Below are positions 4,251-40,296 of a stretch of DNA of 40,333 nt, piece after piece. Below the pieces are notes generated by a model. It did not search any database and was not told the DNA's origin. It saw nothing but the letters and a program-made list of their open reading frames with translations. The translations under genes were made by a program, and so were the position numbers. How positions within the stretch are numbered: the first letter of the stretch is position 1; every line of letters begins with the position of its first letter. The DNA comes from an uncultured Bacilli bacterium (lineage in GTDB: Bacteria > Bacillota_I > Bacilli_A > RF39 > UBA660): positions 1 through 40,333 of the forward strand of contig CANQCI010000015.1 of the NCBI GenBank assembly GCA_947589675.1. Reading direction: 5' to 3'.

Positions 4251-4626
4251 AGGGGCTGTTGGGAAATTAAATAATTAATAATTTCTTAACAGTTTTTTTG
4301 TGTGATATTTAAAAACCTAGAAAATATAACACTTTCTAGGCATTTTGGGATACAATTATCTCGCTTAAGAAGTTGTATCACATAGGATATTTTAACATAA
4401 AAAGTTTACTTTTCATAATACTTTCAGAAAAGCGTATTGTAGAATTTGAAAAAACAGATAAATTTTTGTTTTTTTAGAAATTTCTGATGTTGAAAAAATA
4501 ATTAAAAATATAATAAATTATTACAGGAAAATACACTATATTTTGCATAAAATTAAAGTTATTATATACCAAATTAAAATAAAAAGGCTATTAAGAAATT
4601 AATCACTTAATTTCCCAACAGCCCCT
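4251..4626. mobile_element. MITE-like non-coding element with 20-bp perfect inverted ends
   Basis: AGGGGCTGTTGGGAAATTAA at 4251-4270 is exactly complementary to 4607-4626, and similarity continues imperfectly another ~25 bases inward. The 376-bp interior has no coding frame of note but further hairpins: CCTAGAAA/TTTCTAGG near 4316-4340 and GATACAA/TTGTATC near 4350-4380. Each terminal repeat, with its inner partner, folds into a ~14-bp stem followed by T, acting as a terminator directed inward. No clear target-site duplication is visible and the parent IS family is not assignable from this copy. The right end supplies the last two bases of the TAG stop of the surface-protein gene. Confidence 0.7.
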
Positions 4627-6133
4627 AATAAGTTAAAAGCATCGGACTTTCATATGTTCCATCACCACTTACATAGGTGATATCACTGGTTAAATAAAAT
4701 ACTGGTCTAACACTTTTTAATTCATTCACACTAGCTTTATTTACACCACTAGAATTAACATTAATAGCTTGATTGGTACTTTCAGCATCTCTAGTTAAAG
4801 TCCACATTCCGGCATCACTTAGTAACCAGTTATTGTTGTAATAATTATTATTTATCCATTCATCTTTATTAGAAGCAAAAGCAACATCACTTAAATATAA
4901 TAAACCAAATTTACTAATTACTTCTAAATTGTCATTCGTGCAAAGTGAAACATTACTTATGCCATCATTATCTAAGCATTTTAATTCATCAGGTTGAATT
5001 TTTCTTTCCCCGACTTCCTCAGCATATATATCATTTGGCTTTAAATCGGTATTACTTATTCCCCCGATATACCAAGTAGCATCGAAAATTTTGGTTTGCC
5101 AACTTTCCGGAATAGTATTTAAAAAGGAACTATCATCACTATTATTTAAGGTTGTGAGTAAAGAACTTTTTTCCCAACCATTAGAACCATTACTATTCCA
5201 ATAGTCCGTTTTAAATTCCGCATCAGTAATTAATTTAAGATGATTATCAATAACCCCAATTATCCGATAACGATTATTATTTAGACAAGCTGTACCATCA
5301 GAAAAACAGACATAATTATTAGGATTACTTCCCGCATAGCGATAACTATTATCATTAGCATCTACACTATTTCCATAAATATCCGTATTACTACCATCAT
5401 GATAATATAAATTGTTTTCCCCTGGAGTTTTATAGGTACTAGCTATTTTATCAACAATACTTTTATTTTTCTTTTCCGGTTGAATTAAAGCTTGAGCTCG
5501 AAATTCTTTGCCTATATTTTGGGCTTGGTCAGTATTTAGATTAACTAATGTAACTTTTATATGCCATTCTTGTTCACTATTTCTAGCAATATCCCCGCTT
5601 GCTTCAATACTATGGGCTTCATCAATTGCTACCAAACCTTGTTTAGTAGTAATATCAAAACCTTGAATTGAACCAGTTGGAGCATCAACTGTAACATAAT
5701 CAATTGTCTTATCAGCAATTTCCGTAACTAAATTACCATCTGGATCTTCAATTTGCAAAAGTAATTCTGGTTTTTCGGAATTTACGGTATATATAAAGGG
5801 ATTATTTAAAATATTAAAATAGACAAAGTAATCTTGGCTTTCTATATCTTCACCATCTACTCTATTTAATATAGCTTTAACACTTGTTTCACTTACAAAA
5901 TTTTTAGAACTACTTTTAAAATTTTCGTTAGTATCAATTGTAATAGCACTTCCCGCTTCAAAAGTTAAAGCATCAGTTGAATCAACTTCCATGTCTAAAT
6001 TACCCCTAATACTATCACCATTTTGAGAGGCAAAGTAAGCATAAGTGGCACTCAAAACAGTTACTAATAACAACATTAAACAACAAATAATCACAACAGT
6101 CTTTTTCTTATTTTCTATATCAGTTTTATTCAT
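4625..6133 (-). CDS. Membrane-anchored modular surface protein, 502 aa
   Basis: N-terminal charged stretch and one hydrophobic segment (about residues 10-32) ending ATYAYF, like the exported TasA/camelysin-type proteins, then an Ig-like beta domain to about residue 215. From about 260 a second domain begins with NSYRYAGSNPNNYVCF, continues RYRIIGV...LKLI and ends SVRPVFYL, a layout reminiscent of C-type-lectin/formylglycine-enzyme-like folds used for display. It is homologous at both ends to the 958-aa protein at 37420-40296, but lacks that protein's middle FN3 and beta-repeat modules and keeps an AT-rich 3' end. It has its own promoter (6164-6192). The stop codon TAG is completed by the inverted end of the MITE, so the original C-terminus may have been altered. 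Ligand unknown; adhesion is a guess. Confidence 0.8.
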   Translation of the reverse strand: MNKTDIENKKKTVVIICCLMLLLVTVLSATYAYFASQNGDSIRGNLDMEVDSTDALTFEAGSAITIDTNENFKSSSKNFVSETSVKAILNRVDGEDIESQDYFVYFNILNNPFIYTVNSEKPELLLQIEDPDGNLVTEIADKTIDYVTVDAPTGSIQGFDITTKQGLVAIDEAHSIEASGDIARNSEQEWHIKVTLVNLNTDQAQNIGKEFRAQALIQPEKKNKSIVDKIASTYKTPGENNLYYHDGSNTDIYGNSVDANDNSYRYAGSNPNNYVCFSDGTACLNNNRYRIIGVIDNHLKLITDAEFKTDYWNSNGSNGWEKSSLLTTLNNSDDSSFLNTIPESWQTKIFDATWYIGGISNTDLKPNDIYAEEVGERKIQPDELKCLDNDGISNVSLCTNDNLEVISKFGLLYLSDVAFASNKDEWINNNYYNNNWLLSDAGMWTLTRDAESTNQAINVNSSGVNKASVNELKSVRPVFYLTSDITYVSGDGTYESPMLLTY

Positions 6134-15924: not shown

Positions 15925-17403
15925 TTAAAGCACTATGGCTATTAAAGTATTTGATCCTTTATTCACTATTTTAGTTACAGTATCTTTTAATTTATAACGA
16001 GTATTATCGGGCATCATACTAAGTTTAGCTTGAATGCCTTCTTGAACAATATTTTCTAAGCTGCGACCAAAAATTTCACTTTTCCAAATACTTGTGGCAT
16101 CTTTTTCATAATCTTGCATTAACCGATTAATTAATTCTTTAGATTGAACTTCACTCCCAATAATGGGTTCAAATGTTGATTCAACATCCACTTTGATCAG
16201 ATGAATACTTGAAGCTAAAGCTTTTAATTTAACACCATAGCGATTACCTTGCTTTACTAATTCGGGAGTATTAAGTTTAAGTTCCCGGGTGGTCGGATAA
16301 ACAATGCCATAACCAGTTGACTTAGCCATCTTAAGGGCTGACTTAATATTATCCATTTCTTCTTTATCAGTACTATAAGTAGAAAATATTTTCAAAAGTC
16401 CAGCTTTAGTTGTAACTGTATCACCCATGATAGATTTTAAAGTTTCCGTATATAATTCGTTCGAACTTTCCAAATTAACTGTAACAGTTCCTGTTGAAGC
16501 ATCAAGTTCACTAATATAAGCTTTATTAATGTATGGGGAATCTTCAAAATGTTCTAAAATATAATCAACATCTTTAACTTTTTCCACACTAACCACACTT
16601 TCCCGAATCTTTTCCATATAATGATTTTTAATTTCATGCTTTATTGGTAAAACATGAACCCAATCGGGTATTGATACTTTAATATCTAAAACTGGAAATT
16701 CGTATAATGCAGCCTTTAAAATTTCCATTATTTCTTTTTCATTCATTAATTCGGCACTTATTGGCATAACAGGAACTTCGTAATTTTCACTTAAACTTCG
16801 GGCTAAGGCAACAGTTTCGGTATTAGTTGGATGCACACTATTTAAAATAACGATAAAAGGTTTACCAATTGTTTTAAGTTCATTAATAACTTTAGCTTCT
16901 GCTTCTAAATAAGCATCCCGTTTGATTTCACCAAAAGAACCATCAGTTGTTACCACAATCCCTATTGTTGCATGATCTTTAATAACCTTTTCCGTGCCAA
17001 TTTCTGCTGCTTCGACAAAAGGAATAGCATCTTCAAACCAGGGACTTTTCACCATACGCGGATTTCCTTCTTCATCAACAAACCCATTGGCCTCCGGTAT
17101 AACATACCCAACACAATCCACTAATTTAACATTAGTTGAAAATTCATTAATCTTGATATTTGCCCCATTACTAGGAACAAACTTAGGCTCGGTTGTCATA
17201 ATTGTTTTACCTTGGGCACTTTGAGGAATCTCATCTAAACACCTTTTCTTTTCATATTCATCAGTAATATTAGGAACAATTAAATTTTCAATAAACCTTT
17301 TAATAAAAGTTGATTTACCAGTCCGCACTGCTCCTACGATACCTAAATAAATTTCACCATTACCCCTCTTGGCAATTGAAGATATTATTTTTTCTTTTTC
17401 CAT
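15925..17403 (-). CDS. spoIVA: Stage IV sporulation protein A (spore coat basement ATPase)
   Basis: A 492-aa homologue of SpoIVA, the ATPase that polymerises on the outer forespore membrane and forms the base layer of the coat. The P-loop GAVRTGKST is at residues 24-32. The typical GTPase-derived middle with the TEPKFVP and VDCVGYV motifs, and the conserved C-terminus (FGRSLENIVQEGIQAKLSMM ... LIAIVL) are present, so the protein is full length and looks functional. It marks the organism as a genuine endospore former. A candidate SigE-type promoter is at 17426-17454, matching its mother-cell expression in B. subtilis. It is directly upstream of hup. Confidence 0.98.
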   Translation of the reverse strand: MEKEKIISSIAKRGNGEIYLGIVGAVRTGKSTFIKRFIENLIVPNITDEYEKKRCLDEIPQSAQGKTIMTTEPKFVPSNGANIKINEFSTNVKLVDCVGYVIPEANGFVDEEGNPRMVKSPWFEDAIPFVEAAEIGTEKVIKDHATIGIVVTTDGSFGEIKRDAYLEAEAKVINELKTIGKPFIVILNSVHPTNTETVALARSLSENYEVPVMPISAELMNEKEIMEILKAALYEFPVLDIKVSIPDWVHVLPIKHEIKNHYMEKIRESVVSVEKVKDVDYILEHFEDSPYINKAYISELDASTGTVTVNLESSNELYTETLKSIMGDTVTTKAGLLKIFSTYSTDKEEMDNIKSALKMAKSTGYGIVYPTTRELKLNTPELVKQGNRYGVKLKALASSIHLIKVDVESTFEPIIGSEVQSKELINRLMQDYEKDATSIWKSEIFGRSLENIVQEGIQAKLSMMPDNTRYKLKDTVTKIVNKGSNTLIAIVL

Positions 17404-21839: not shown

Positions 21840-21867
21840 AAATAAAAAGAAGGATTAAATCCCTCTT
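21840..21867 (-). terminator. Terminator of the beta-helix surface-protein gene
   Basis: Eight-bp stem with one wobble pair (21867-21860 with 21854-21847), five-base loop, T-rich tail. It overlaps the stop codon of the gene. Confidence 0.7.
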
Positions 21868-23335
21868 AATCGACCATAACTTTTTTAATAGCAACAGCTA
21901 AAATTCCGGTGCTAAGTAAAGCAAGTCCTGCGATAATCGCCGCATTATCAAATGTATCTGGATTGGTTGCTAAAACTTCATCTAGTACTATTGTTTTATA
22001 AGTTACAGTAACTAATACATTTCCCTCAGGCATAACAAAGGTATTATCAGCACTTACTGGAATAACTGTACCATCTTCGGTCGTAATTTTTATTTCGCCT
22101 ACTTCATAACCAGCACTTGGAGTTAAAGTAAGAGCTACTACTTCGCCAACCGCAGCATTACTATTAACAGCAATGGTTCCATTTTCAGTTGGTCCAGCCG
22201 TAATATTATAAACTTTACCAACTACACCAGAAACAGATTGACTAGTTTGGGCACTTAAATATTTTTTACCTACATCTTGGTTGAATTTTCCACCTATAAC
22301 CACGATTTCATCAGTAGCATTATCACTTTCATCGCCATAAGCAAGAACTCCGCCATCATTTGTGGTAAAATCGCCGCCTTTAACTTCAACTTTAGCTACA
22401 TTAGGATATGTACTTTCGGTATTATCAACAATTATTCCCACACCAGAAGGTATATCAATTTTTTTACCATCTTTTACAGCATCGCCGGTATTAATTGTTT
22501 CACCCGCGGTACCATTGGCTGTGATATTACCGTTAACAACACTTACTGTTCCTTGACGAGCAACAATACCAACTTTACCAGTAATATTACCATTATTTAT
22601 AGTAAGCGTTCCAGTTTGAGGTTGATAAATTGCCGCATTACCAGTACTAGTTAAGTTACCACCATTGATAATTATTGTTGAGTTTTTCGTATCTCTTCCA
22701 TTACCGGCAACAGCAAAAGCTTCAGCTTTAATTACGCCGCCATTGACCGTTAATTTTTGATTTTCACCAAAAACGCCAATACCATAACTTCCGTCTACCG
22801 TAGCACCATCTTCAAAGACTAAACTAGCTTTACCATCATACTCAGTATGATTAACTAATCCAACCGCAATCGTAGATTGAGTGGTATTAGTAGTAGTATA
22901 AAGTCCACCTTTAATAATACCGGTTCCTTCTTGAACTACAAGGGCTGGTAATTGATTGGTGTTTTCAATTTTACCTGTTTTTTCAACACTAGTATCAACA
23001 ATAGTTAAGGTAACACCTTTAGCAATGTAAAATGTTCCATACGTTGCAATACTAGATGTAATGCTATGTCCATTTAAATCAAATGTTAAATTAATAGGAC
23101 TATTATTTTTAACAGCTGTTACTTCTGTATTAGTTATATTTTCTAATAACTTAACTGTCGCTCCTTCAGTTGATTCTGAGAAAGCATCATTAATTGCCGT
23201 ACAATATTTTTTACTTCCATTGCTAAAATCAATTTCAGCTTGAGCACCAGCACTATCTTCGGTACAATTAGCTGCGAAAACATTTGGTAAAAATAACATA
23301 CTAGCCATTAAACCAACAAACAATTTTCTTCCCAT
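21866..23335 (-). CDS. Beta-helix surface protein with sortase-like NPDTFD tail
   Basis: A 489-aa exported protein: signal peptide (LFVGLMASMLFLPNVFA, cleavage near VFAAN), then repeated turns rich in Gly/Asn/Thr with strands such as LTINNGNITGK, VSVVNGNITAN and VEVKGGDF, typical of a right-handed parallel beta-helix adhesin. An InlB-like segment follows (GEVVALTLTPSAGYEVGEIKI). The C-terminus has NPDTFDN, a hydrophobic segment (AAIIAGLALLSTGILAVAI) and a KK-containing tail, the order of a sortase substrate with NPxT in place of LPxTG. The promoter is at 23361-23389. Attachment by a sortase is an inference; no sortase gene is in the window. Confidence 0.85.
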   Translation of the reverse strand: MGRKLFVGLMASMLFLPNVFAANCTEDSAGAQAEIDFSNGSKKYCTAINDAFSESTEGATVKLLENITNTEVTAVKNNSPINLTFDLNGHSITSSIATYGTFYIAKGVTLTIVDTSVEKTGKIENTNQLPALVVQEGTGIIKGGLYTTTNTTQSTIAVGLVNHTEYDGKASLVFEDGATVDGSYGIGVFGENQKLTVNGGVIKAEAFAVAGNGRDTKNSTIIINGGNLTSTGNAAIYQPQTGTLTINNGNITGKVGIVARQGTVSVVNGNITANGTAGETINTGDAVKDGKKIDIPSGVGIIVDNTESTYPNVAKVEVKGGDFTTNDGGVLAYGDESDNATDEIVVIGGKFNQDVGKKYLSAQTSQSVSGVVGKVYNITAGPTENGTIAVNSNAAVGEVVALTLTPSAGYEVGEIKITTEDGTVIPVSADNTFVMPEGNVLVTVTYKTIVLDEVLATNPDTFDNAAIIAGLALLSTGILAVAIKKVMVD

Positions 23336-29026: not shown

Positions 29027-31645
29027 TTAATTGCTTTTCTTTAAACGTCTAAATAATTTAGTTATTTCCATGACAATTATAACGGTTAAAGAAAGGATAA
29101 ACAAGACAAATATATCATTTAAAGGAATACTACTAGTTTCTAAAATAGTACTTAAAAAAGGGACTTCCATAACTAAAAATTGTAAAATAATACAAAGAGA
29201 AATAGCAATAGGGACAAATAAATTTTTGTTTCGATAAACTACTATTGATTCTTTTTCACTGCGACAATTTAAAACATGAACATTTTGGACAAAAACCATT
29301 AAACATAGAATATAACCACGAGCGACAACAGGATCCATCTTGACTTTATTAATTAAGATTACCCATAAAACTAAAACAATCGCACTAATGTAAAGACTAG
29401 ATACTAAGATTTCTCTAATCATTTCTTTATTAAATAAGCTTTCTAAAGGATTTCTAGGGGGTTCATCCATAATGCTATCGGTTGCTAGTTCAAAAGACAA
29501 GGCGATATCTTGAAGCCCATCGGTAACAACATTAAGCCATAGTAATTGAATAGCAATAAGGGGCATTGGTAAATTAAATAAGATAGCTAAGATAAAGAAG
29601 AACACTTCGGCAAAGCCACAAGAAACTAACATATAACAAATTTTCCGAATATTATTATAAGCATTTCTGCCTTCTTTTACCCCTTCCACAATCGATAAAA
29701 AGTTATCATTCATTAAAATCATTTTCGCATTTTCTTTGGCAACATCTGTGCCACTTCCCATGGCAACTCCGATATTCGCCGTCTTTAATGCGGGAGCATC
29801 ATTGACACCATCCCCTGTAACGGCAACAAACTCACCTCTTGCCTTTAAAGCTTCGATGATAGCATATTTATCCATGGGACTAACTCGAGCAAATATCTTT
29901 TTTTGAACAATAAATTCTTGGAATTTTTGACTTTTTTTATCTTTAAATTGATCTAAATCTTCTTTGGTCGCTAGTTCATCAGGGCTATTAATTAATTCTA
30001 AATCTTTTCCTATTTTATAAGAGGTAAGTGGATGGTCACCTGTAATCATTAAAACTTTTATCCCTGCCTTTTGGCAAGTTTTAATCGCATCAATGGACTC
30101 TTCACGAATTGGGTCAATGAAACCAACCAAGCCATCAAATTCTAAATCATGTAAATCGGCAACCGTATATTCTTTTTGTTTTTTTAATTTGCCACTGGCA
30201 ACAGCAATTACTCGGTAACCATCACGAGCTAAATCTTCATTCATTTTACTAATTTGTTTTTTTGGTTCTTTTTTATTTAGCATTTTTAAAATAACTTCTA
30301 ATGAACCTTTTACCGTACAATAAACTTGATTTTTCTCTTGATAAAAAACGGCGGAATATTTATTTTCTGATTCATAAGGAATCATATTAATAATTGAAGT
30401 CTGATCATCTTTTTTAATTTTAGCCTTTAATCCTAAATATAAAAAGGCAATATCAATGGAATCTCCATGGTCATTTCCATTTTTTATATCAATAGTTGCT
30501 TCATTATTTAAAACCCCATGAAAAACTAATCGTTCAATTTGGTCATTGTAGCCGACAATTACCCCTTTCGCATTATAACCACTTCCCGTTACTTCATGAT
30601 GAGTTCCATCTTTTAAAACTAAAACTTTCGCTGTTTGTTCATTTTTAGTCAGAGTTCCCGTTTTATCGCTCGCAATAACTGTACAACTTCCCAAGGATTC
30701 CACCGCATTTAAATTTTTAACTAACACTTTCTTTTTAAACATCCGATTAGAACCAATCGTTAAAGCCATAGTTTTAGCAAGCGGTAACCCCTCGGGCATG
30801 GCTGAAACGGCTAAAGCTACCACGACTAAAAATATTTCACTAACCTTGGTTCCTTTACTTACCAAAATAAGAGCTAAAACAAGCGAAATAAGCACAATCG
30901 CCACACTAATTTGTTTGGTAAATTTATTCATTCTAATTTCTAAAGGTGATGGAGCTTCTTCGACGGCATTGACCGCCTCAGCAATTTCCCCAAGCATGGT
31001 ATTAACACCAGTTTTGACAACCACAGCTAAAGCTCGACCACTTAAAACACTACTTCCCGCATAAAGCATATTGGGATAAGATAATTCATTACCTTTAGCA
31101 TTTTTTAAAACAATATTTTCTTTACTAATAGCGACACTCTCGCCAGTTAAAGAAGATTCATCCACGGTTAAATTTTTGGCTTCAATAAGCCGCATATCAG
31201 CAACAATCTTATTTCCACTAGTAAGAACGACTATGTCCCCAGGAACTAAATCACTCGAAGCCACCACCACTTCTTCATTATCTCTTCGCACCGTTACTTC
31301 AACTTTTAACATATTTTGAAGAGCTAAAGCATTTTTCTTCGCCTTTAATTCTTCAATAATCCCAATTATTAAATCAACTGCAATTATAAAAAGAATTGCT
31401 AAAGCATCAACATACTCCCTTGTAAAAAAAGAAATAAGTACTGTTGCTAACAAAATAAGAACTATTGGTTCTTTAATTTCTCTAATTAAAATATCAATTA
31501 CCGTATCTTCTTTAGCTTTGGGCAATTCATTTTTGCCATACTTCGCCCTTAGCTTTTCAACTTCTTCTTTTTTTAACCCCGTTTCTCTTGTCTTTAAGTT
31601 CTTCAAAACTTCTTTAATATTTTGCTTATGAAATGTATTATTCAT
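29027..31645 (-). CDS. Cation-transporting P-type ATPase, P2A calcium-pump type
   Basis: An 872-aa P-type ATPase. The phosphorylated Asp is D327 in SDKTGTLTK; TGES (actuator domain), MITGDHPLT and TGDGVNDAPALK are present. Residues that bind calcium in SERCA site II are conserved: PEGLP in M4 and NVVTDGLQD in M6, so Ca2+ export is the best substrate call. The N-terminal cation ATPase domain and the C-terminal four-helix part are complete. It heads a unit with the BIG2 protein; a CaCA exchanger 2.8 kb away may share the calcium-handling role. Start ATG at 31645 with GGTGAT about ten bases upstream. Confidence 0.95.
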   Translation of the reverse strand: MNNTFHKQNIKEVLKNLKTRETGLKKEEVEKLRAKYGKNELPKAKEDTVIDILIREIKEPIVLILLATVLISFFTREYVDALAILFIIAVDLIIGIIEELKAKKNALALQNMLKVEVTVRRDNEEVVVASSDLVPGDIVVLTSGNKIVADMRLIEAKNLTVDESSLTGESVAISKENIVLKNAKGNELSYPNMLYAGSSVLSGRALAVVVKTGVNTMLGEIAEAVNAVEEAPSPLEIRMNKFTKQISVAIVLISLVLALILVSKGTKVSEIFLVVVALAVSAMPEGLPLAKTMALTIGSNRMFKKKVLVKNLNAVESLGSCTVIASDKTGTLTKNEQTAKVLVLKDGTHHEVTGSGYNAKGVIVGYNDQIERLVFHGVLNNEATIDIKNGNDHGDSIDIAFLYLGLKAKIKKDDQTSIINMIPYESENKYSAVFYQEKNQVYCTVKGSLEVILKMLNKKEPKKQISKMNEDLARDGYRVIAVASGKLKKQKEYTVADLHDLEFDGLVGFIDPIREESIDAIKTCQKAGIKVLMITGDHPLTSYKIGKDLELINSPDELATKEDLDQFKDKKSQKFQEFIVQKKIFARVSPMDKYAIIEALKARGEFVAVTGDGVNDAPALKTANIGVAMGSGTDVAKENAKMILMNDNFLSIVEGVKEGRNAYNNIRKICYMLVSCGFAEVFFFILAILFNLPMPLIAIQLLWLNVVTDGLQDIALSFELATDSIMDEPPRNPLESLFNKEMIREILVSSLYISAIVLVLWVILINKVKMDPVVARGYILCLMVFVQNVHVLNCRSEKESIVVYRNKNLFVPIAISLCIILQFLVMEVPFLSTILETSSIPLNDIFVLFILSLTVIIVMEITKLFRRLKKSN

Positions 31646-35432: not shown

Positions 35433-37163
35433 CTATTTTTTATTAACAATTACATCCTTTAAATATTCTAAAAATTCTGATTGGGAAACTGTAATAGTTT
35501 CTTCTTTTCCAAGTAACCGATAACTAATATTTTTAGCATCTACTTCTTTTTGCCCAATTATTACCGTGATTGGCATTTTTTTAACAACGCTTTCTCTTAA
35601 CCGATAACCAAGTTTTTCTTCCCGATCATCTAGTTTTACACGAATATCATTTTCTTCTAACATCTTAGTTATTTCTTTTGCATATTCTAAATGATATTCA
35701 TTATTAACAGGAATAACATTAACTTGAACTGGACTTAACCAAACTGGGAAAGCTCCGGCATAGTGTTCAATTAAAATGCCAATAAATCTTTCAATCGAAC
35801 CAAAGATAACTCGGTGTAACATTACAGGTCTTTCTTTTTTTCCATCTTTATCAATATAAGTTAAGTCAAATCTTTCTGGTAAATTCATATCGAGTTGAAT
35901 GGTTCCACATTGCCATACTCGTCCTAAAGAATCTTTAATATGGAAATCTAATTTAGGTCCATAGAAAGCCCCATCACCTGGATTAATCTTGCAATCATGC
36001 CCAGACTTATGACAAGCTTCTTCTAAAACTCGTTCTGATTCATTCCAAACTTCGATATCACCGATATACTTTTCAGGACGAGTTGAAAGTTCAATATCAT
36101 ATGATAAATTAAAGACTTTATAAACTCGGTCAATAAAATTAATTAACCGGATAATTTCTTCTTCAATTTGATCTTTTCGCATAAATAAGTGAGCATCATC
36201 TTGTGTAAAAGTCCGAACTCGAAATAAACCATTTAAAGCTCCACTGGCTTCATGACGATGAACTTGGCCTAATTCACCGACCCGAAGTGGTAAATCTTTA
36301 TAAGAATGTAAACTATTTTTATAAACAAGCATTCCCCCAGGACAATTCATTGGCTTAATGGCAAAAGTTTTATCATCTATTTCTGAGGTATACATATTTT
36401 CCCGATAATTAAACCAATGTCCTGATAATTCCCACAATTCTTTATTTAACATAATTGGGGTTTTAACAAATTCATATCCTTCTTTTGTATGTTCTTTATA
36501 CCAATAATTAACTAATTCATTATAAATAACCATGCCATTATTTAAGAAGAATGGAAACCCTGGACCATATTCACTAATCATAAATAAACCTAATTCTTTT
36601 CCTAGTTTTTTATGATCTCTTTTTTTAGCTTCTTCTAAAAAGTTTAAATGTTCATCTAAAGCTTCTTTCGTATCAAAACAAATTCCGTAAATTCTTTGAA
36701 GCATTTTATTATGAGCATCACCTTTCCAATAAGCTCCACTTACTTTAAGTAATTTAAAATACTTTAGTTCTTTAACACTTTCCACATGAGGACCTCGACA
36801 AAGGTCAGTGAAATCCCCTTGGCTATAACAACTAATAACGGTATCATCGTCCATATTATTAATTAAATCTATTTTATAAGGATCATTTTTAAACTTTTCT
36901 AAGGCTTCTTCCCGACTTAACTCTTGTCTTACAATTCTTTTGCCATCCTTACTTATCTTTTTCATTTCTTTTTCGATTTTTTCTAAATCTTCTTCTTTTA
37001 TTACTTCATCACCTAAATCAATGTCATAATAAAATCCTTCTTCAATAACTGGGCCTACCCAAAATAAAGCTTTAGGGTATAGATGTTTTACTGCTTGAGC
37101 TAGTAAATGAGCACAGCTATGGTTCATCATGCTTAATTTTTCATTTTCTTTAATATTTATCAT
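35433..37163 (-). CDS. thrS: Threonine-tRNA ligase lacking the TGS domain
   Basis: A 576-aa class II synthetase that charges tRNA-Thr. The N-terminus begins at the editing domain (MNHSCAHLLAQAV, with the HxxxH zinc/editing pair; later DLCRGPHVES), so the ~60-residue TGS domain of most bacterial ThrRS is absent, as in some Mollicutes. The catalytic core is intact: MNCPGGML (zinc Cys), motif 2 VRTFTQDDAHLF (zinc His), HRVIFGSIERF (zinc His), then the anticodon-binding domain to the C-terminus. It is controlled by a T-box leader. The ATG at 37163 has GGAAGGGAAG upstream; no in-frame extension would restore a TGS domain because T-box sequence begins there. Confidence 0.97.
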   Translation of the reverse strand: MINIKENEKLSMMNHSCAHLLAQAVKHLYPKALFWVGPVIEEGFYYDIDLGDEVIKEEDLEKIEKEMKKISKDGKRIVRQELSREEALEKFKNDPYKIDLINNMDDDTVISCYSQGDFTDLCRGPHVESVKELKYFKLLKVSGAYWKGDAHNKMLQRIYGICFDTKEALDEHLNFLEEAKKRDHKKLGKELGLFMISEYGPGFPFFLNNGMVIYNELVNYWYKEHTKEGYEFVKTPIMLNKELWELSGHWFNYRENMYTSEIDDKTFAIKPMNCPGGMLVYKNSLHSYKDLPLRVGELGQVHRHEASGALNGLFRVRTFTQDDAHLFMRKDQIEEEIIRLINFIDRVYKVFNLSYDIELSTRPEKYIGDIEVWNESERVLEEACHKSGHDCKINPGDGAFYGPKLDFHIKDSLGRVWQCGTIQLDMNLPERFDLTYIDKDGKKERPVMLHRVIFGSIERFIGILIEHYAGAFPVWLSPVQVNVIPVNNEYHLEYAKEITKMLEENDIRVKLDDREEKLGYRLRESVVKKMPITVIIGQKEVDAKNISYRLLGKEETITVSQSEFLEYLKDVIVNKK

Positions 37164-37183: not shown

Positions 37184-37382
37184 AAGCAATAAAAAAGAAC
37201 GATACAGGAGTGCCTAACAGCACGGTACCATCCTTTATTTTTCTTAATTAAGCTAACGGTCTTACCCGTGGTTTATTAACCCTCTTAGAAAGTAGTAACT
37301 TTTAATTTAATTATTAGTTCGCACCAACCACTAACTCTCTTAAAATTAATTATTAAAAATCATGTCTTTCCTCATCGATTTC
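37184..37382 (-). promoter_or_regulatory. T-box leader of thrS
   Basis: The T-box core GGATGGTACCGTG is at 37233-37221 on the minus strand, the Stem I apical motif GGTGCGAA near 37326-37317, and a GTGC/GCAC hairpin with TTCTTTTTT follows at about 37221-37186 as terminator. Uncharged tRNA-Thr would stabilise the antiterminator and switch thrS on. ACT (Thr) triplets occur in the Stem I 3' region at 37287-37300, a plausible specifier, though I could not fold the loop exactly. Confidence 0.88.
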
Positions 37383-37388
37383 ATCAAT

Positions 37389-37419: not shown

Positions 37420-40296
37420 CTATACAACAATGCGGAATGGTTTAGAAACTGAACCATCTCGATCATCAACTTTAATCTTCACATCAGACTTCAGATAAAA
37501 GGACGGCCGAACCCCGTTCACATAGCTGTTGACGTTGTTGACGCGCACATTCCCGTCACGGTAGACATAGAACGCATAGTTGGAATTGCTGTAGTAGCGC
37601 GATATTGTCCATTCATTTACATTATTATATAACCAGTTATTTTCTCGGTTGTTATTGTTTGTATTATCATAATTATATAAGGTTGATGTCCAACTTTTTT
37701 GTTCGCTTGCAAATACATAGTCCGAAGCATACATCAAACCAATTTGAGCGGGTACTGTTGGGGTTGAGTTTATTTCCGCATCATACATTACTTTTGGCGT
37801 TACTTCTCTTGTACTATGACCTCCTACATGCCACGTTGTTGTCGCTATTTTATCTGTCCACGTTGTACCCAAAAAAGTTAAATAACCTCCATTTAATGCT
37901 TGATATAAGGTGCTACTTCCCCATGTATTATCAGCTGTTTTATTCCAGTAAAACCCTTCACTTGGTGCTACTTTTACTCTTTTCAAAGTATCGTAACTTC
38001 CTTTGTATGGCGTACCATTACTAGCTATTCCTAATTCGGTACTTTTTATGTATTCAGACTTGATTAATTTGACTTGATTATTAAAGACGCCTATTATCCG
38101 ATACAAATTAGTGTCTGGGCATGAGGTTCCTCCATTATTATAGGTTTCACTACCACTTCCAAAACAAACAAAGTTATTTGGGTTATTTCCGGAATACCGA
38201 TAGCTATTATCTTGTGCACTATTAGCTAAACTTGTTGTATGTTGAGCTAGTGTTCCTGAGCCTGATGCTCCTACTTTACTGATTACAAATTCATGGGCTA
38301 GTTTTCCAGCTAAATTTAATACTACTGTACAGGTTCTGGCACTTGTTACATTACTAGCTGTTAACGTTTTATTACCATTGCTTAAAGTACAACCAGTTCC
38401 ACCTGTTACTTTGGCGGTCGTTATATCATAACCATTACTAGCTGTAATAGTAAATGTTACACTTTCATTATATTTTACTGACTTTGGTGATTTATCAACT
38501 GTTCCACCTGTAATATTTACGGTGACATTATATTCTAATTTAGGAATTGTAACTGTACAGGTTGTTGCCGCTGTCACATTACTTACTGTTAATTTGGTTT
38601 TATCTGTATTAAAAGTACAACCAGCTTCTGACACAGTCGCGGCACTTAAATTATATCCTGTGGTTGCTGCTATCGCAAAAGTTGTACTTTTACCATGGTC
38701 AACTGTTGCTTGCGTAGGTGTAGCCGTTCCCCCTGATACAGTAGCTTTGACTAAATAATTATTTAATGTCGTTCCTTTATAATTGGCATTTTCTAATATT
38801 TTAGTACGATTATTACTATCTGTTACTCGTATTTTAAATGTATATGCTGTTGCCTTGGTTAAACTTCCAAATGAATATGAATAAGTTCCATTAGTATTAG
38901 TTCCTTGATACCAATTAGTATCACCATTTCTCTGATACTCAACTTTACTAACAGTTCCTGTACCATTATTAAATGTTCCATTTACTTTTATAACACTTGA
39001 GGTTATATCTGATACTGTAAAAGATTTCACACTTGGATAAACATAAGTTTCTGTACTTTCTTCTTTATCAAAACTATCTACTGATTCTCTTTCTAATTCA
39101 TCTCTTACTTTTACTTGAATATTATATGTTGTTGTATCAACTAATCCAGTAAATTCAAATTCATCACTTGTTTGCCATGCACTCCAGTTACCGTATGTAT
39201 CATTATTTTCTATTTTAAAAGCATATTCTTTTACATTCTTAGTTCCAGCCTCAGTAATCGCCTTTACTTTAATACTTGTTAAAGTTTTACTCACTAAAGT
39301 TAAATCTGTTACTTTAACATTTAAATATTCATCTGTTTTAATAATCGCTGTTTTTATAGCACTCATTATACCTTGCACATCTTTTTCATAAGCATAAATT
39401 TTATAATTTTGATTATCTTTTAAAGGTTCCCCGTTTAATTCTCGAAATGTATAAGTTGGTTCATCTGACTCAACATAGGTTGGTTCTAACTTTTCGGCGA
39501 TACTCATTATACTAGCTGTGGCTGGTTCTTCATCGGTTTCTTCAATTGCATAATAGTATTTATCTATTGCTTCGGTATGGTTATCATTTTCAATTAAATT
39601 AATTGTTATACTTTCATAATCTTTAGAGTTTTCAATAATACTATTTATTTCAGGCATAACATAAGTTTCTTTTTCTTCTGTCGTAATTAAAACTTTACCT
39701 TGAAAAGTTTTACCGGTATTTTCTTGTTGATTAGTAGTGAGATTGCGAAGTATGACTTCAAACTCCCATGTTTCTTCGGTTCCATCTTGAGAGTTAGCAC
39801 TTATTTCTTCATCAACAGTAATTTTAAAGGTGCCATGCCGCATTGTTATATCAAAACCCTGTAAGTCCTCTTTGTAAATTAATCCTTCAATACTTGTTAC
39901 TTCCCCTTGGTCAGGATTTTTGACTTTTAATAAAAGTTCAACTTGTTTATCGAGAGTTGAATAAGTAAAATCATTTTGATCAATAATAAAATAAACATTA
40001 TATTTATCTTGGGCTTGTTTCGTATTATTATTGGGTACTAATTTCGCCATGGCTGTCGTCGTTCCTGATTTATCACTGGCTCCTTGATAAAAATCATCGG
40101 CTGATGCTGTTATATTAATCGGTGTTCCAGCATGAAAAGTTAAAGAGTCAGTTGTCCCAGCTCCAACTTCAATCTCCGCATTTCCACCTGTTCCCTTTTG
40201 GGCTTGAAAGAAAGCATAAGTTGCCCCAATCACGACAAGCAAAAGTGTAAACAATGTAAACAAAATTAAAGTCTTTTCTTTTCTAGATTTTTCCAT
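37420..40296 (-). CDS. Large modular surface protein with a GC-rich C-terminal cassette, 958 aa
   Basis: N-terminal membrane segment (about residues 10-28, ending ATYAFF) and an Ig-like domain to ~215, homologous to the 502-aa protein at 4625-6133. Then three fibronectin-type-III-like modules (~220-510), two ~70-residue beta repeats (~514-655: YLVKATVSGG..., YNVTVNITGG..., each with a Cys pair), and a C-type-lectin/FGE-like domain from ~690 (NSYRYSGNNPNNFVCF, YRIIGVFNN) ending NGVRPSFYL. Codons 899-935 form a block with different base composition (see the feature at 37492-37602). The whole layout is a stalk displaying a binding domain outside the cell. The start ATG 40296 has GAGGGTG upstream. 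The ligand is unknown. Shorter paralogue at 4625-6133 lacks the stalk modules and the cassette. Confidence 0.85.
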   Translation of the reverse strand: MEKSRKEKTLILFTLFTLLLVVIGATYAFFQAQKGTGGNAEIEVGAGTTDSLTFHAGTPINITASADDFYQGASDKSGTTTAMAKLVPNNNTKQAQDKYNVYFIIDQNDFTYSTLDKQVELLLKVKNPDQGEVTSIEGLIYKEDLQGFDITMRHGTFKITVDEEISANSQDGTEETWEFEVILRNLTTNQQENTGKTFQGKVLITTEEKETYVMPEINSIIENSKDYESITINLIENDNHTEAIDKYYYAIEETDEEPATASIMSIAEKLEPTYVESDEPTYTFRELNGEPLKDNQNYKIYAYEKDVQGIMSAIKTAIIKTDEYLNVKVTDLTLVSKTLTSIKVKAITEAGTKNVKEYAFKIENNDTYGNWSAWQTSDEFEFTGLVDTTTYNIQVKVRDELERESVDSFDKEESTETYVYPSVKSFTVSDITSSVIKVNGTFNNGTGTVSKVEYQRNGDTNWYQGTNTNGTYSYSFGSLTKATAYTFKIRVTDSNNRTKILENANYKGTTLNNYLVKATVSGGTATPTQATVDHGKSTTFAIAATTGYNLSAATVSEAGCTFNTDKTKLTVSNVTAATTCTVTIPKLEYNVTVNITGGTVDKSPKSVKYNESVTFTITASNGYDITTAKVTGGTGCTLSNGNKTLTASNVTSARTCTVVLNLAGKLAHEFVISKVGASGSGTLAQHTTSLANSAQDNSYRYSGNNPNNFVCFGSGSETYNNGGTSCPDTNLYRIIGVFNNQVKLIKSEYIKSTELGIASNGTPYKGSYDTLKRVKVAPSEGFYWNKTADNTWGSSTLYQALNGGYLTFLGTTWTDKIATTTWHVGGHSTREVTPKVMYDAEINSTPTVPAQIGLMYASDYVFASEQKSWTSTLYNYDNTNNNNRENNWLYNNVNEWTISRYYSNSNYAFYVYRDGNVRVNNVNSYVNGVRPSFYLKSDVKIKVDDRDGSVSKPFRIVV
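37492..37602 (-). other. GC-rich codon block, candidate DGR variable region
   Basis: Counting 37501-37602, 55 of 102 bases are G or C, against 11 of 60 in the adjacent 37621-37680. In codons 899-935, 28 of 37 end in G or C and half end in C (TAC, AGC, TCC, AAC, GTC, TTC), the codon set expected if AAC codons of a template were randomised at A. It encodes the lectin-like tail RYYSNSNYAFYVYRDGNVRV...NGVRPSFYL, 22 codons before the stop. Borders are abrupt. No template repeat or reverse transcriptase lies in this window. Confidence 0.5.

Follow-up and report, generated by a model that had tools for sequence, protein, structure and literature searches.

A GC-rich patch in a surface-protein gene of an uncultured Bacilli bacterium is very probably a remote variable region of a chromosomal diversity-generating retroelement

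The window analysed here (40,333 nucleotides) is the entire contig C15 of a 1.46-Mb draft MAG of an uncultured Bacilli bacterium, an assembly of 60 contigs that is 95% complete with 2.76% estimated contamination. The feature of interest is a predicted surface-protein gene (Table 1) whose product carries a hydrophobic N-terminal signal with a GATYAFF motif, an Ig/Fn3-like middle part and a C-terminal DUF6273 domain. The Ig/Fn3-type Pfam matches are weak and under the cut-off, as is a weak SipW-type signal match on a paralogue of this gene. Directly downstream of the gene, and upstream of a thrS-like gene (35433-37163), lies a T-box leader (37203-37384, minus; RF00230, 80.2 bits, E = 6e-18, just under the Rfam gathering score). 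The window also encodes a protein of 489 aa in which a divergent InlB B-repeat domain was recognised (21866-23335, minus), possibly another surface protein, and a full-length SpoIVA homologue (15925-17403, minus), which suggests that this Bacilli lineage with its reduced genome is capable of sporulation. Because rpoB/rpoC and the RNase J gene lie near spoIVA, we regard the window as core chromosome.

Table 1. Features of the window (contig C15) and of the elements related to it on other contigs of the same assembly.
Feature	Location	Strand	Description
DGR target gene	37420-40296	minus	958-aa ORF, predicted secreted/surface protein, remote from TR
VR	37503-37601	minus	99 bp, 80% identity to TR
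DUF6273 domain	37486-37962	minus	PF19789 over cut-off; VR at its C-terminal end
Weak inverted repeat	37437-37457	minus	46 bp downstream of VR, 9-bp arms, 3-nt loop
VR-less distant paralogue	4625-6133	minus	C-terminal domain 30.5% identical to that of the window target
TR	C37:15239-15337	minus	99 bp, outside any target ORF
MutS-I-like gene	C37, between TR and avd		124 aa; MutS domain I match, E = 1.4e-4
Avd-like gene	C37		121 aa; PHROG 3206, E = 2.5e-9; NF033474, E = 4e-9; Pfam bAvd, E = 7e-5
Reverse transcriptase	C37		358 aa; IGNMTSQ at residue 202, YMDD at 234
Second DGR	C55:2218-4136 and C19:3861-4871		own TR, two VRs, RT apparently split

The gene contains, in frame, a block at 37492-37602 with a GC content of 51.4%, compared with 30.1% for the window. 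An earlier note on this DNA had put the GC content at ∼54%, which is slightly high for the block (the exact variable region, VR, within it has 53.5%); the rest of what it saw was right: G or C fills 28 of 37 third positions, and NNC codons number 19. Upstream of the block, GC3 falls to 18% and NNC codons to 9%, and no other 37-codon stretch of the gene has more than 13 third positions with G or C, against 28 in the block. When windows overlapping the block were excluded, only two 111-bp windows in the 40 kb were equally GC-rich, both near 29733.

A DNA search of the genome with the block returned 12 further convincing copies. One of these, on contig C37, is the template repeat (TR), which is placed between a truncated local target gene (C37:15561-16484) and genes for a MutS-I-like protein, Avd and a reverse transcriptase (RT). 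The sharp borders that the earlier note had seen in the block are the ends of this 99-bp match, and the second copy near an RT for which it had proposed a search is thus found, next to an RT of the type known from diversity-generating retroelements (DGRs), an Avd and a local target. The RT matches PHROG 1423 (reverse transcriptase) with 237 bits, and both its motifs agree with the DGR pattern [ILV]GxxxSQ plus YxDD; its top PDB match is 8ub7 (E = 9.5e-26), which we take to be the Bordetella phage BPP-1 DGR RT complex. For the Avd-like protein, the Pfam and NCBIfam scores are under the curated cut-offs, and size and position fit. Reading of the other ORFs on this contig suggested pyruvate phosphate dikinase-like, rRNA methyltransferase-like and RimM-like proteins, and the cassette is therefore probably chromosomal.

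In the frame of the VR, the TR reads CGC AAC TCC AGC AAT TCC AAC AAT GCG TTC AAT GTC AAC AAC AAC GGG AAT GTG AAC AAC AAC AAC GTC AAC AAA ATT GCG TTC GGG GTT CGG CCG. It is rich in AAC/AAT codons, and 32 of its 33 adenines occupy codon positions 1-2. At their 3′ ends, TR and VR have GGGGTTCGGCCGT in common. The spacer after the TR (C37:15115-15236, minus) gave a full-length match to RT-14 RNA (RF02921) below threshold (35.4 bits compared with a gathering score of 48.1, E = 0.006). No relative reached the gathering score either, and we do not claim this identity for the spacer; RT-14 may represent DGR template-RNA spacers.

The mismatches between TR and VR are strongly biased towards adenine. 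The window VR differs from the TR at 20 positions, comprising 14 of the 33 TR A's and six of the 66 other sites (hypergeometric P = 2e-4), as expected from the proposal that differences would fall mainly where the template copy has A. Each of the 13 altered codons now specifies a different amino acid, and 13 of 14 TR AAY codons have retained their third base; the NNC run in the block is thus explained by AAC/AAT codons of the TR that were changed only at their A's. The same bias was seen in each of the 12 VRs that match this TR (p ≤ 0.0015 individually). Pooled, these VRs differ from the TR at 223 of 393 A sites as compared with 69 of 786 others (odds ratio 13.6, P = 4e-70), the substitutions at A's being to G (95), T (84) and C (44). 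Over the 743 bp ahead of the VR, the window gene is 91.7% identical to the local C37 target; within the VR, identity of the two is 33% at TR-A sites and 89% at non-A sites. The other tabulated pairs of VR genes gave 73-89% for the flanks, 15-48% for A sites and 82-95% for other VR sites; C6 was left out of this comparison, its upstream sequence of just 238 bp being uninformative.

The 12 VRs lie on 11 contigs (C15, C37, C43, C40, C8, C6, C29, C7 with two, C34, C4 and C23), an inventory that comes from DNA searches of a draft assembly and may miss diverged VRs; those on C23 and the second on C7 are the more diverged of the set. All are situated about 58-66 codons ahead of the stop, in the 3′-terminal part of paralogous genes for surface proteins that end in a DUF6273-type, C-type-lectin-like domain. 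The full-length targets are roughly 715-970 aa long, and most have GATYA(F/Y)F or a close variant in the N-terminal hydrophobic signal. DUF6273 matches were found at 13 places in the genome, several of them (C35, C12, C34:16735, C8:40162 and C5) with no TR match, so the family extends beyond the genes that bear a VR. One distant paralogue is present in the window itself. As the earlier note had observed, it has the same domain without the GC-rich block, and DNA searches with the block and the TR found no TR match in it. Its further proposal, that the duplication separating this paralogue preceded the arrival of the block, is not supported: there are 12 paralogues with a VR and several without, a distribution that may stem from gain of the VR by some members or from its loss by others.

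An AlphaFold2 model of the window domain, built from an alignment of 12 sequences, reached a mean pLDDT of 75.8 and a pTM of 0.82. The model matched a structure of the T. ramosa IgA peptidase (9qa6) with Z = 15.2 over 195 residues, which was also the one significant match given by Foldseek alone. A second tier with modest Z followed, headed by T. denticola variable protein 1 (2y3c; Z = 7.0), itself a DGR target, and continuing with formylglycine-generating-enzyme-type and C-type lectin chains. The domain is thus predicted, on the basis of this model, to be a C-type-lectin-like fold that displays the VR. Two studies of gut phages describe DUF6273 as a DGR target (PMC10743442, PMC11792537), and the first of them reports a C-type-lectin-like fold for it.

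The genome contains a second DGR. Its TR (2730-2814) and one of its VRs (2218-2302) are on contig C55, together with genes for a MutS-I-like protein and Avd and with the 5′ portion of an RT gene; the second VR that this TR matches is at C8:9539-9623. Mismatches in the two VRs fall on A in 9/9 and 14/14 cases (23/23 in total). The RT frame on C55 ends on entering sequence that begins GTTCGGAAACTAA, and the 3′ part of an RT, at the end of C19, begins after TTAGTTTCCGAAC. Judging from these contig ends, the RT is likely to be a single gene interrupted by an insertion element. Another RT of the genome (C5:1267-2574), considered as a source and rejected, is of the group II intron type (QGGNLSP, YADD) and unrelated to the two DGRs.

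In BPP-1, the VR must be followed by an inverted repeat whose loop is GRNA (PMC3240598). The inverted repeat downstream of the window VR is a doubtful counterpart of this homing hairpin: its shuffle p is 0.055, its loop is not GRNA, and it is not conserved in relatives. The C37 (15581-15608) and C23 targets share an identical 12-bp inverted repeat with a GGAA loop, ∼36 bp downstream of the VR, which fits the GRNA-loop consensus of BPP-1, was equalled in 0 of 200 shuffles and is absent from the other targets. Striking at C37 and C23, such a hairpin did not hold up as a sign by which active targets can generally be told, the local targets of relatives being mostly without one.

Matches to the RT (E ≤ 1e-30) were obtained in 96 of 291 sampled genomes of the family, about a third. 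Those that are named come from MAGs of uncultured Bacilli or Tenericutes, of which several trace back to rabbit (‘Lapin’) and ruminant samples, and A-biased VR/TR pairs adjoin most of the related RTs examined. TR-like DNA was present in 21 of 30 genomes of the genus. In another species of the genus (G310), a TR 89% identical to that on C37 adjoins MutS-I-like, Avd and RT genes, and mismatches in the four VRs that belong to this orthologous DGR are again biased towards A. A scan of a viral collection with the RT gave two matches only, each 31% identical.

Collectively, the features recognizable in sequence by which DGRs are known are present, namely the RT motifs, a TR beside the RT, a VR at the 3′ end of its target, mismatches at A, an Avd and a predicted tolerant fold, whereas the picture for the downstream hairpin is mixed. 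We are therefore confident that the GC-rich patch is a remote VR of a chromosomal DGR whose RT/Avd/MutS-I-like cassette lies on C37, the VR and the RT being linked as different contigs of one draft MAG. The proposal of the earlier note that the gene is a DGR target with a remote template is borne out by the TR next to the DGR-type RT and by the A-specific mismatches; the uncultured Bacilli lineage that hosts it carries spoIVA. By analogy with known DGR biochemistry, the RT-Avd complex would reverse-transcribe the TR RNA and place random bases opposite A, and the cDNA would take the place of the VR in trans, leaving the TR as it was. AAY codons would in this way give rise to codons for about 15 amino acids and never to a stop. 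The outcome would be a repertoire of surface proteins in which the predicted ligand-binding face is randomised separately in each paralogue. DGR activity, homing in trans and a ligand are what we infer here. That one intact RT/TR acts in trans as the central generator for a dozen dispersed surface lectin-like proteins, and that VRs written at different times keep a dated record of template evolution, including changes in the length of AAC units, is a proposal to which we give an even chance.

Traces of such a history are seen when VRs and TRs are compared. The window VR has six non-A mismatches to the present TR, the local C37 VR one. Where the present TR has AAA ATT, that of G310 has AAT AAT, and most VRs of our genome fit an AAY codon at that place. 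At the TR codon TTC, which is likewise present in the TR of a related species, 9 of the 12 VRs have AAC, TGC, AGC, ATC or TAC, as if derived from an AAC template. There are also differences of 3 to 12 bp in VR length, and TRs of other species do not all contain equally many AAC units. The window VR, with its six non-A mismatches, has the older states, so that its latest writing probably goes back to an earlier version of the TR or to one missing from the assembly. This lowers our confidence in present activity, not in the writing of the VR by this DGR lineage.

Two alternatives bear on how the window VR acquired this state. The gene may have been written in the past, or duplicated from a written gene, and no longer be a homing target, its variation being inherited; we regard this as a serious possibility, though not the favoured one. 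Several of the six non-A mismatches do fall on sites (AAA ATT, TTC) at which the change was apparently in the TR itself, and the gene is without the canonical hairpin, whereas the C37 target combines a single non-A mismatch with the 12-bp stem and GGAA loop. However, the absence of a hairpin proves little when hairpins are not general among the local targets of relatives, and non-A sites that are 83-92% identical to those of other VRs, next to near-random A sites, do not resemble long neutral drift. It is less probable, and in our view rather unlikely, that the window VR was written not from the C37 TR but from another TR of the same lineage, in a third cassette that was lost or unassembled. 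The NNC codons of 9 of 12 VRs at a position where the TR of a related species also has TTC would fit such a source, as would the incompleteness of the MAG, but the DNA search of the assembly gave no further TR, and an older C37 TR accounts for AAA ATT given the AAT AAT of the sister species. Finally, a cassette from a GC-richer donor, which the earlier note had offered as an alternative, or gene conversion between the paralogues with no DGR involved, would suit GC-rich non-A sites that look foreign to a 30% GC genome and the similarity of the paralogues, yet is dismissed here as exceedingly improbable: the mismatches concentrate on A's of a template that sits beside RT and Avd, a pattern that rejects a donor, and conversion would make VRs alike, whereas A sites are 15-48% identical against 73-92% for the flanks (tabulated pairs, C6 excluded).

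The remote variable region of a chromosomal DGR that we favour has parallels in several known systems. In T. denticola, one TR serves seven VRs that deviate mostly at A sites (PMC4891356). That DGR (TvpA family) likewise combines a single TR and core cassette with remote VRs in surface targets, and its variable protein 1 is the structure matched by our domain model; here there are twelve VRs, in DUF6273 targets with a Gram-positive-type signal, an extra MutS-I-like gene between TR and avd, and a Bacilli host. Trichodesmium erythraeum IMS101 has 18 loci with TR/VR homology and two DGRs (PMC8867640), 76 remote DGR targets have been reported from cyanobacteria overall (PMC7517822), and Thiohalocapsa has 15 target genes across nine loci, some inferred in trans (PMC10907252). 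The cyanobacterial multi-target DGRs (PMC8867640, PMC7517822) resemble ours in their many dispersed CLec paralogues, of which some only have a VR, in the occurrence of more than one DGR per genome and in nearby insertion elements; their targets, however, are mostly predicted to be cytosolic with signalling domains, those described here to be secreted or at the surface. The DUF6273 targets of gut phages (tentaclins, PMC10743442; Faecalibacterium prophages, PMC11792537) share the Pfam domain and the C-type-lectin-like fold, and in the Faecalibacterium prophages also the position of the VR at the C-terminal end of DUF6273, but are phage proteins, whereas our genes occupy bacterial chromosomal loci. 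With BPP-1, the present DGR shares the RT-Avd-TR-VR logic, A-specific substitution and RT homology (8ub7); unlike in BPP-1, the target is remote and chromosomal, and conservation of a GRNA-loop hairpin close to the VR is not general.

DGRs, remote targets and DUF6273 targets were thus already known; what is new, and striking, is a DGR with 12 VRs in a 1.46-Mb Bacilli genome. In our literature search, which mostly did not extend to subscription papers and is weak evidence of novelty, RF39 was not found named together with DGRs, and Tenericutes only incidentally. With this finding, a cellular DGR that is heavily multi-target becomes known from an uncultured family of gut-type Bacilli. The Trichodesmium genome measures about 7.8 Mb. 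With 12 VRs of one TR and two of another in 1.46 Mb, the number per megabase here is well above that of the multi-target examples compared (Trichodesmium). The genome thereby offers a natural setting for two questions: can a single DGR serve a large number of unlinked genes in trans, and by what is a paralogue marked as a target?
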